DNA of 64,000 bases, taken from assembly GCF_003144095.1 (NCBI RefSeq), contig NZ_NSKH01000002.1:135024-199023 (forward strand), given 5' to 3'. The DNA comes from Streptomyces sp. ICBB 8177. GTDB lineage: Bacteria; Actinomycetota; Actinomycetes; Streptomycetales; Streptomycetaceae. The notes below the pieces were generated by a model. It was not told the DNA's origin, ran no database searches, and was given only the letters and a program-made list of their open reading frames with translations. Positions 58,822 to 62,011 of this stretch are shown here, piece by piece. The position numbers were made by a program, and so were the translations under genes. Position 1 is the stretch's first letter. Each line of letters begins with the position of its first letter.

Positions 58822-59583
58822 ATGGCTGCTGCTCAGTACAAGCTGATCCTCCTCCGCCACGGCGAGAGCGAGTGGAACGCGAAGAACCTGTTCACCGGCT
58901 GGGTTGACGTCAACCTGACCGACAAGGGCGAGAAGGAAGCGGTCCGCGGCGGCGAGCTGCTCGTCCAGGCGGACCTGCTGCCGGACGTCGTCCACACCTC
59001 CCTCCAGAAGCGCGCCATCCGCACCGCGCAGCTGGCGCTGGAGGCCGCCGACCGCCACTGGATCCCGGTGCACCGCACCTGGCGGCTGAACGAACGCCAC
59101 TACGGCGCGCTCCAGGGCAAGGACAAGGCGCAGACGCTGGCGGAGTTCGGCGAGGAGCAGTTCATGCTCTGGCGCCGCTCGTACGACACCCCGCCGCCCG
59201 TGCTGGAGGACGGCACCGAGTTCTCCCAGAGCGACGACCCGCGCTACGCGACGATCCCGCCGGAGGCCCGCCCGCGCACCGAGTGCCTCAAGGACGTCGT
59301 CGCGCGGATGCTCCCGTACTGGTACGACGGCATCGTCCCCGACCTCCTGACCGGCCGCACGGTCCTGATCGCCGCCCACGGCAACTCGCTGCGCGCCCTG
59401 GTCAAGCACCTGGACGGCATCTCCGACGCGGACATCGCGGGCCTGAACATCCCCACGGGCATCCCGCTCGTCTACGACCTGGACGAGAACTTCCGCCCGA
59501 CCAACCCCGGCGGCACCTACCTCGACCCGGAAGCGGCAGCCGCGGCCATCGAGGCGGTCAAGAACCAGGGCAGGAAGAAGTAG
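58822..59583 (+). CDS. gpmA: 2,3-bisphosphoglycerate-dependent phosphoglycerate mutase
   Basis: A 253-residue d[23 protein letters not shown] holds the phospho-acceptor His13 and the RHG motif. Other markers are [29 protein letters not shown] and [20 protein letters not shown] with the second His. It interconverts 3- and 2-phosphoglycerate in glycolysis. TAGGCT lies 7 nt before the ATG, so the message is nearly leaderless. It is the last clearly core gene of the window. Confidence 0.97.
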
Positions 59584-59669: not shown

Positions 59670-60796
59670 TCAATCCCACGCAAGCCGTTGACCGTCGGGT
59701 CCGGCATGCCACCGCAGTCGCCCGGCGCCCGGTTCTCCCGCCGCCCGCCAGGCCGTGATGCGTTCCGTGATCGTGTCCCAGAGGCGTTCGGGCCCCGTCT
59801 GGCGTACGGACCAGTGGCCCGCGTCGTCCTGGGTGAGGCAGGCCCACGCCTGCGCCGTGACGTCGAGCAGGACGTGCCGCGTTCGGCCGTCCTCGTGCGG
59901 CAGTGTCAGCCGTTGGACCGTCGGGGCCGCCGACTGCGCGACGTAGCGGGTGGTCCAGTCGTCCAACGCGTCGGCGCCCAGCGAGCAGGGCTCCTCGTCC
60001 GCACCGGTCAGGTCGGGCAGCACCCCGAAGGGCGGCGGTGATTGCGGCCGCGCAGGCATGAAGGTGACGTGCCAGACGAGGACCGGACCGCTCGCGGTGC
60101 CGTCGCCGTGGACGGTGAGGCGGACGAGTTCGGAGGCGTGCATCCAACCGCCCATCGGCACGAGGATCTCCCCGCCCGGCCGCGTCTGCCCGATCCACGC
60201 CAACGGAACGTCGCGCACCCCGCACGTGGCGGTGACGCGGTCGTACGGAGCCCCCCCGCGTGACCGCCGAGGCCGTCACCGTTCACGAGGCGGGGACGCA
60301 GGCCGAGGCCCGCGAGCGCGATGGCGGCGCGGGCGGAGACCTCGGCGTCCAGATCGATGGTCGTAACGTGGTCGTCGCCGACGAGGTGGCAGAGCAGGGC
60401 GGTGGAGTAACCGGTCCCGGTGCCGATCTCCAGAACACGCGAGCCGGGTCGTACGCGTAGTTCCTCCAGCATGCGCACGACCAGGCTCGGCAGGGTCGAG
60501 GAGGAGGTCGGTGCTGCGGCGACGCGCCCCTCGACCTGATCCGCGAAGACGCCGCCCGCGACTTGGGTGGCGAGCGTGTCGTCCTCGTAGATTCGAGGCA
60601 GCGAGCGTTCGTCTGCCCGCGTGGCCCGGAACCAGCCGCCGTCCTCGTGCTCGAACCACCCGTGCGACAGGAATGCCTCCCGAGGCACGGCACCGAGGGC
60701 GTTCTTCAACGCGTCGGAACGCAACGTGTCGCCCCTGACAAGCGCGTGAACGAGCCGGCGGCGCAGGCGCTCGGAGCCGGGAAGGCCGTCAGTCAC
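59670..60796 (-). pseudogene. Frameshifted PIMT-like methyltransferase of an ATP-grasp peptide (graspetide) system
   Basis: The GTG at 60796 opens a frame with N-terminal text ([33 protein letters not shown]) and SAM motif [19 protein letters not shown], in frame through [11 protein letters not shown]. Homology then jumps frame to [33 protein letters not shown] and continues to the stop at 59670. The break coincides with seven C at 60251-60257 (G7 on the coding strand); one extra G would restore APYDRV. The product resembles protein-isoaspartate methyltransferases found with ATP-grasp peptide ligases. Its start overlaps the stop of the ligase stub (GTGA). It could be a real mutation or a sequencing error. 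Confidence 0.82.
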
Positions 60797-60930
60797 GTTC
60801 GGGGTCTTCCGTTCTGGAGCAGGTCGGCGATGGCGGCCGTGATCGGCAGGTTCGCGGCGGCTTCGAGCCAGGCCCACTGGCCGTTGGGGTTGCATTCGAG
60901 GAATCACTCGTCGGCCACGGCGAAGTCGAA
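60793..60930 (-). pseudogene. C-terminal stub of an ATP-grasp peptide ligase
   Basis: About 46 codons survive: FDFAVADE, an in-frame TGA at 60904-60906, then [21 protein letters not shown], then [11 protein letters not shown]. The xFLExNPNGQW block is the metal-binding end of ATP-grasp ribosomal-peptide maturases. The TGA probably replaces a Trp codon. Upstream of 60930 similarity stops abruptly. The stop overlaps the methyltransferase start, as expected for an intact ligase-methyltransferase pair. Function lost. Confidence 0.75.
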
Positions 60931-60938
60931 AGGACGAG

Positions 60939-61165
60939 ACCGGACGTGGGTGACCGCCTACCTGGCCCGAGCCCAGCTCGGCCAAGGTGAGATGGACTCG
61001 GCTGTGGCCACGGCGATGACCATCACGACCTCGGCCCCCACCCTCAACCCCCGCGCGTACGCGTCCTTTCGCGCCTTAAGCGCAGACCTGCAACGGCACG
61101 CGCCACACAGCACCGCAGCCCGAAGGTGGGATACCCACGTCCGCGAGGTCTTCAACAGCAGTGCC
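60939..61165 (+). pseudogene. C-terminal stub of a helical (TPR-like) regulator
   Basis: On the plus strand, in one open frame, [28 protein letters not shown] and [13 protein letters not shown] followed by HVREVF resemble the final TPR helices of streptomycete XRE regulators. No start or DNA-binding part remains; the text begins directly beside the ATP-grasp stub. The two stubs point away from each other, as expected if one deletion removed the region between. Assignment is by pattern only. Confidence 0.5.
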
Positions 61166-61292
61166 CGTCAACGGGCGGCTGTCACACGCACGCGAACACC
61201 AGTTAGCTCAGCACCTGTTGGTGGAACGCATGAGCCCACGAGCAAATGAAGCAGTGACTCTCACCCTTCGGCGAGACACCTAGCCTTGAGCT

Positions 61293-61568
61293 GTGACCTG
61301 GAGTGAGGCGGAGTACCTCGACTGTCTGAAGTCCGAGCGGCGTGGCTACGCATGGGTGATGCGGCACCATGGCGGGTTCACGCCGGCGGAAGCCAGGGAG
61401 GCCGCTCTGGAGCGATACCCGTACGAGCCGGATGGCGACCCGCACCGCGGGCTCATTTTCCACGACGAGGCGTGGCACTGGGCGATGCTGGCGATACACG
61501 GCGATCGGTACGTGGTCGAACACCCGGAACTGGTCGACCCGTCGCCTGAGTACCGGGCACTTGAGTGA
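61293..61568 (+). CDS. Small hypothetical protein (91 aa)
   Basis: A 91-residue protein beginning MTWSEAEYLDCLKSERRGYAWVM, rich in Trp, His and Glu. LIFHDEAWHWAMLAIHGDRYVVEHPEL gives a helical, charged C-terminal half. No domain recognised; similar short proteins appear in variable regions of streptomycetes. TAGCCT lies 6 nt before the GTG, so the mRNA should be leaderless. It is convergent with the DUF4157 remnant, whose 3' end it nearly touches. Confidence 0.72.
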   Translation: MTWSEAEYLDCLKSERRGYAWVMRHHGGFTPAEAREAALERYPYEPDGDPHRGLIFHDEAWHWAMLAIHGDRYVVEHPELVDPSPEYRALE

Positions 61569-61589
61569 ACCGATGCGCGGGGGGGCGAT

Positions 61590-62011
61590 GTGGCTCAGCT
61601 CGTGGGCCCAGAACCCGCTCGTCGCCGACGGCCGCTGCGGACCAAGAAGATGTGGTTGCCGACAGTCACGGCCTGGGCGTCCAGGGCTGCGGTGGCTCGT
61701 TGGGCGACGGCGTCGCGGTGCAGGGGGTATAGGAGATCCTGCCGTTCTCGAAACGACGGCTCGGCCCTCGCCATGACGAACGCGGGCAGCGGCCCGCTGG
61801 GGGACTGCCTGGCGGCGGCCAGCAGCGCGCTTTGCCCCTCCGGGCTGGTGTCCGCTACGCGGGCCTGCGCCTCCTCTTCTACGGCTCCGGCACGCTGCAC
61901 GGGCGAGGCCTGCGCGGGGTTCGGCGTGCGGGCACTCGGAGGGGCACGATTGCCGGTTTGCCGAAGCGGGTGCGCCGACGACCCGCGTCGTCCCGGACGG
62001 CGCAGACCCAC
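61590..62011 (-). pseudogene. Truncated, frameshifted DUF4157 (eCIS core domain) protein
   Basis: The minus strand reads SPEGQSALLAAARQSPSGPLP, LHRDAVAQRATAALDAQAVTVGNHIFL, then changes frame near 61641-61650 to GPQRPSATSGFWAHELSHI. HRDAVAQRA and the HELSH metal-binding motif (61590-61604) are those of the DUF4157 domain found in many extracellular-toxin and contractile-injection-associated proteins. One missing base explains the shift. After HELSH the usual VVQQ-type continuation is absent, so the gene is also truncated. The N-terminal limit is uncertain. Confidence 0.65.

Follow-up and report, generated by a model that had tools for sequence, protein, structure and literature searches.

The window, a stretch of 64,000 nucleotides from Streptomyces sp. 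ICBB 8177 (contig NZ_NSKH01000002.1, positions 135,024 to 199,023), contains on its minus strand a methyltransferase (MT) gene that is split between two reading frames and, directly in front of it, the 3' end of an ATP-grasp ligase gene. The genes and features at the locus are the following:

58822 to 59583, plus strand: gene read as a phosphoglycerate mutase, which converges with the MT gene and after which the conserved backbone gives way to the island
59670 to 60260, minus strand: C-terminal half of the MT in the other frame, matching TIGR04188 positions 172-362 with 188.5 bits, with a RiPP-type C-terminal extension and the sequence WRAAGEP
60254 to 60796, minus strand: N-terminal half of the MT (PAMT/TgmC type), matching TIGR04188 positions 1-170 with 191 bits, with the SAM-binding motif GTGTG
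60793 to 60945, minus strand: 3' stub of an ATP-grasp graspetide ligase, matching TIGR04187 positions 266-312 of 312 (E 7.5e-11), with a TGA inside
60947 to 61249, plus strand: open stretch in the opposite orientation, which abuts the ligase stub and marks the break

The split MT gene runs from a GTG start at 60796 to a stop at 59670. Its first frame is readable to about 60254 and its second from about 60260, and the shift falls on seven consecutive C at 60251-60257, where the original prediction had placed a frame slip. The two halves were searched separately, with the frame unmended, against TIGR04188, the model of the "ATP-grasp peptide maturase system methyltransferase", which has 363 positions. 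Each half spans its entire share of this profile, with an E-value of 3.7e-56 for the N-terminal half and of 2.2e-55 for the C-terminal half; both halves stay below the cut-off of 380 bits, which is set for the full-length protein. Models of the repair-type enzyme score far lower with the N- and C-terminal halves, namely 46.4 and 19.8 bits for TIGR00080 (cut-off 159.05) and 61.1 and 20.1 bits for PRK00312 (cut-off 188), and the N-terminal half matches the PCMT family (PF01135) with 52.3 bits. The WRAAGEP of the C-terminal half conforms to WXXXGXP, which is described as a motif of the PIMT homologues of lasso peptides, graspetides and imiditides (PMC13001092). Judged by its sequence, the window MT is a PIMT homologue of the graspetide type with a broken reading frame.

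The ligase stub comprises the last 47 of the 312 TIGR04187 positions, and its frame ends at 60793, overlapping the MT start by the predicted GTGA. An in-frame TGA directly precedes the stretch of ten residues that the original prediction had named as typical of the end of peptide-maturase ligases. Both genes are broken, as had been supposed. A 36-residue piece of the stub scores 43.6 bits with TIGR04187 (cut-off 350), which is the right family at remnant length. The last 36 residues of the stub are 74-91% identical to the tails of the MT-linked ligases in loci L056-L075, 63-73% identical to those in L076-L087, and 55% identical to the other ligase of the source genome. Because of the E-values, a chance origin of the MT and ligase matches is ruled out, and TIGR04188 and TIGR04187, which are the best matches, bear out the proposal that these are the remains of a graspetide locus with a PIMT-like MT. 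The proposed end of the locus at 61165 is too far, since the ligase homology ends at 60945 and the open stretch beyond it is unrelated. This stretch matches the Pfam model TPR_IFT121 with 17.1 bits, below the cut-off of 27, and it has one further match of 31% in L079; by eye, it might perhaps be the tail of a TPR-type regulator.

That no precursor is visible had also been noted, and a search of the whole genome with TIGR04186 at E≤10 listed no match on this contig. The graspetide core pattern does not occur within 4 kb upstream of the window MT either, and the window is therefore regarded as a remnant and not as a working member. Inspection by eye of the 20 frames of at least 25 residues that overlap 60700-62000 showed no Gly/Pro/Asp-rich precursor of the pamtide type, which has about 45 residues.

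In the characterised relatives, the ATP-grasp ligase is described to link Thr to Asp side chains through esters. A loop Asp is next methylated by the PIMT homologue, which leaves the linear peptide unmodified, and the resulting aspartimide is hydrolysed to isoaspartate and Asp (PMC13001092, PMC10787088). The clusters of amycolimiditide, albusimiditide and SsfA(BM), which belong to the group 13 graspetides, consist of a precursor, an ATP-grasp ligase and a PIMT homologue, and fuscimiditide from Thermobifida fusca, the example given in the original prediction, is likewise reported with an ATP-grasp ligase and a PIMT homologue (PMC13001092), a likeness to the present locus in gene content. The first three clusters share with the locus and its relatives the relatives' gene order, the C-terminal extension of the MT with WXXXGXP, and the Thr-rich and Asp-rich ends of the precursors. 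Unlike them, the window has no precursor, its ligase is a stub and its MT is out of frame, and the likeness is one of gene layout and motif.

The relatives of the window MT were collected with its N-terminal half. Matches at E≤1e-45 were present in 33 of 394 genomes of the family, the source genome included, and matches at the stricter E≤1e-57 in 23 of 392 genomes of one genus, four of which had already been found. The neighbourhoods of all new matches were taken, a scan of named genomes added one locus, that of Streptomyces sp. S465, and the resulting comparison set comprises 54 MT loci, including the window. A ligase that can be aligned over its whole length lies directly upstream of the MT in 43 of the 54 loci, and one more, L076, has a ligase with an internal gap. 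The aligned ligase stretch is free of stops in 42 of the 43, and that of L069 has one stop. The gene order in these relatives is precursor, ligase, MT. Of the 44 ligase-bearing loci, 42 have a precursor core, recognised by pattern, in the 900 bases before the ligase, and L070 has one recognised by eye, which makes 43; L111 has none. Many of these precursors end in a core that is first Thr-rich and then Asp-rich, for example HGTSVNTYPPTQVGKDGKVDADSGHDATQD and ...GKHGTSVNTYPPTQVGKDGKVDADSGHDATQD. A change of frame in the MT occurs in two of the 44, L086 and L117. An intact trio at this site in relatives had been named as a finding that would support the reading. Intact trios occur in more distant relatives, whose MTs are 53-71% identical to that of the closest sister; the closest sister itself has none at this site.

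The remaining ten loci, which are the window, L055 (the sister), L056, L058, L108, L120, L121, L124, L125 and L026, have lost the 5' part of the ligase or all of it. In six of them the ligase is truncated at its 5' end and the alignment starts at codon 45, 118, 239, 275, 285 or 289 of 318, and in the other four (L055, L120, L125 and L026) only a short ligase tail is left before the MT start, that of L055 resting on about 22 bases aligned with the window. All of the ten except the window have an open MT frame. A precursor core is found within 4 kb upstream in none of the ten, L056 retaining a truncated precursor, and the sequence in front of the ligase break varies from locus to locus. In seven of the ten the break falls within the last 45 of the 318 codons (binomial 9e-5 against a uniform spread), a clustering that is a pointer only, because the limit was chosen post hoc and the loci were found via the MT. 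Ligase searches, with the neighbourhoods of the matches, were also made in seven other genomes, and C-terminal ligase stubs were seen in G001:C4, S465, G359 and G302 besides the window, a count that is not unbiased, since several of the seven genomes were picked for harbouring ligase-less loci. The stub of G001:C4 adjoins an MT with an early stop.

The ten losses among 54 MT loci suggest that this type of cluster is often lost from the front, and the window, where decay has gone further than in the other nine, is one instance of a "methyltransferase-only" remnant that recurs. This recurrent remnant is modestly interesting, and the locus itself is ordinary in kind. Among the papers listed on graspetides, on pamtides or imiditides and on RiPP pseudogenes or decay, no title or abstract opening dealt with clusters that lost the ligase and kept the MT, and the words "pseudogene" and "lost" are absent from the main text of PMC10787088.

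The conservation of the chromosomal site was compared with the sister genome, that of Streptantibioticus parmotrematis Ptm05. The sister MT is an open frame of 375 amino acids, with neither ligase nor precursor at the same site, and upstream of it lie a gene for a helix-turn-helix regulator (HTH_31, 42.5 bits) and one resembling an antibiotic biosynthesis monooxygenase (ABM, 39.7 bits); three whole-length ligases are found elsewhere in the same genome. The backbone on both flanks is 91-93% identical between window and sister, and between the flanks only pieces can be aligned, at 79-87%. The backbone ends are about 4.8 kb apart in the window and about 28.5 kb apart in the sister, and the region between them looks like an island in decay.

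Part of the extra DNA of the sister is a pSAM2-like integrative element, with RepSA (503 bits), FtsK, GntR and phage integrase recognised by Pfam, which is located at about 399.6-412.7 kb of G001:C34 (L148/L149), with the MT on one side and the 3' end of the phosphoglycerate mutase gene on the other. At the mutase 3' end, copies of a repeat of some 24 bases that differ by one mismatch enclose the element; the window has a single copy of the repeat at 59559-59583 and no element, which corresponds to an empty site. At 61595-62011 on the minus strand, the window also encodes an eCIS core domain (PF13699, E 2.3e-8) in a protein that is cut short; the version of this protein in the sister has 527 amino acids and possesses a downstream part, including HELSH, that is absent from the window.

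The state of the window MT was assessed from its replacements and from codon models. Of the amino-acid replacements, 24 are assigned to the window and 9 to the sister, with 20 unclear (binomial p 0.014 for 24 versus 9), and at positions kept in at least 13 of 14 ligase-bearing relatives there are 15 on the window side versus 5 on that of the sister (p 0.041). Synonymous changes are divided 23 versus 17 (p 0.43); this split between window and sister is insecure, so that the MT may have diverged in large part under constraint, and the break may be recent. A codon fit to three sequences, in which the outgroup branch is saturated at the bound, gave an omega of 0.49 on the window branch and did not reject omega=1. 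A codon model of 22 sequences gave an omega of about 0.15 (0.151) on the same branch and rejected omega=1 (lnL -9459.98 versus -9452.46). The 22 sequences of this tree model come from 53 aligned sequences, L086 and L117, which have frame changes, and L145 being left out of the alignment. Its omegas are 0.106 for the background, 0.130 for the ligase-less branches (among which L108 and L121 have merely cut ligases) and 0.151 for the window, with no clear difference between the three.

For the other MTs with a lost or cut ligase, the three-sequence fits gave omegas of 0.057 (L055), 0.101 (L056), 0.098 (L058), 0.260 (L026), 0.163 (L120), 0.204 (L124), 0.074 (L125), 0.059 (L108) and 0.083 (L121), and eight ligase-bearing controls in the same role gave 0.04-0.16. 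In these fits, where some branches are saturated, omega=1 is not rejected for the window and for L120. The low omegas of ligase-less MTs cannot prove a retained function, because their branches include time before the loss, and the selection tests on lone MTs are compatible with a retained function or with a recent loss. The window MT is taken to have been under constraint for a long time and to have broken fairly recently. The single frame change at the seven-C run could be a sequencing error; the loss of the ligase and precursor could not be one, and within this assembly that loss is certain.

With high confidence, we consider the locus a degraded cluster of the group 13 graspetide type ("graspimiditide"), which by now most likely makes nothing. 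The observations behind this reading are the gene identities, the truncation, the frame change, the lack of a precursor match and the intact gene order of the relatives, and the chemistry would be that of the characterised relatives in print. The ligase of the ancestor would have cross-linked a short precursor through Thr-Asp side-chain esters, and the MT would then have methylated one Asp of the loop, leading to aspartimide and isoaspartate; by analogy with the relatives, the ancestral product was presumably a Thr-rich/Asp-rich graspetide. In the probable course of events, the precursor and all of the ligase bar its last 47 model positions would have been lost, the unrelated stretch of opposite orientation coming to abut the remainder, and the MT would have lost its frame and gained replacements at otherwise conserved positions, with function lost as the likely outcome.

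It is unlikely, though not negligibly so, that the frame of the window MT is in truth intact, the C run having been misread, and that it is a living, ligase-less MT acting alone or in trans, as that of the sister may do. The homopolymer at the frame change, the open frames of the sister MT and of eight other ligase-less MTs, and the low omega of the tree model on the window branch would agree with this; they are countered by the excess of replacements on the window side, overall and at conserved positions, by the precursor that was not found at the locus, and by the report that linear precursors are left unmodified by the characterised graspetide MTs (PMC13001092). It is very improbable that the locus was a two-gene pamtide or imiditide system, with a precursor and a PAMT, that never made a graspetide and lies beside an unrelated ligase piece. 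Such two-gene systems, called type I, do exist (PMC10787088), another MT of the source genome (L018) adjoins a small Pro/Asp/Gly-rich frame, and the lone PAMT without ligase in the sister and at other ligase-less loci resembles them. Unlike type I systems, however, the ligase-less loci keep a long or very short ligase tail before the MT and share no new precursor that could be seen, and in the window the stub overlaps the MT start and is closest to the MT-linked ligase tails of L056-L075, a linkage that holds in 43 of the 54 loci. That a housekeeping protein-L-isoaspartate repair enzyme came to lie beside an ATP-grasp fragment by chance is hardly credible: the MT does belong to the PCMT family, as its PF01135 match indicates, but TIGR04188 far outscores TIGR00080 with both halves, the long C-terminal extension carries WXXXGXP, and the MT stands directly behind a whole-length ligase in most loci.

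Beside the preferred reading of a degraded graspetide cluster, a wider proposal is put forward tentatively, as rather doubtful: graspetide MTs may outlive their pathway, the precursor and ligase being repeatedly deleted and the MT, whose start region lies in the ligase tail, being kept by selection for a second substrate. This substrate might be a protein of the cell, some other peptide, or a graspetide whose genes lie elsewhere in the genome. If true, this would be a route from a tailoring enzyme to a free-standing modifier that turns Asp into isoAsp. A set of 3653 PAMTs is reported without assigned context (PMC10787088); "methyltransferase-only" remnants could form part of it, and, if the proposal holds, kept lone MTs could account for part of it. 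Counts from genome mining hooked on the MT may take in clusters that are dead or repurposed; a simple mark by which such remnants can be told from true two-gene pamtides is a ligase tail before the MT.

A new precursor for lone MTs was looked for by eye in the ligase-less loci, and the idea found a single case, at L058:6039-6242 (G302), with nothing alike in the others. This is a Gly/Pro/Asp-rich frame of 67 amino acids, without a Pfam match, that ends exactly at the stub junction before the open MT, and it could be a replacement precursor or a product of chance.

The source genome (6.3 Mb in 27 contigs) has one other ligase match, which is of whole length (C11:632678-633601, 341.9 bits, cut-off 350) and is preceded by a precursor scoring 44.1 bits with TIGR04186 (cut-off 25); the whole-genome search gave no TIGR04188 match near it. 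The two genes form an intact precursor-ligase pair at L015:6471-7629 (G000:C11:632470-633629), whose ligase shares 93% identity with one of the sister's ligases. Ligase types were counted among 17 whole-length ligases, 16 from the seven genomes and that of L015, excluding L143 (divergent, with no MT seen), two weak G081 matches without loci and four partial stub matches. All 11 of the 11 ligases of the MT-linked type have an adjoining MT. The six of the MT-less type (L135, L136, L137, L141, L142 and L015), which are mutually similar and 48-93% identical to L015, have no MT within 1.5 kb on each side, or within 14 kb for L015. Action of the window MT in trans on the C11 graspetide pair was considered and is unlikely, the C11 ligase belonging to the MT-less type.

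Four further near-full TIGR04188 matches occur in the source genome, all below the cut-off of 380. At L018:6170-7641 (G000:C11, about 269.2-270.6 kb), a TIGR04188-like MT has just upstream a small Pro/Asp/Gly-rich frame (...DDDKLPGQPWPLPPTPPSPDGPTPDGDGKHRK), and this pair is a candidate type I pamtide or imiditide. Two more TIGR04188-like MTs lie at L019:3616-8246 and L016:7466-10344, one of them preceded, at a distance of a few genes, by a radical SAM gene (PF04055) and the other close to a gene for an FHA-domain protein (PF00498), settings that resemble the rSAM and FHA contexts of PAMTs given in PMC10787088.
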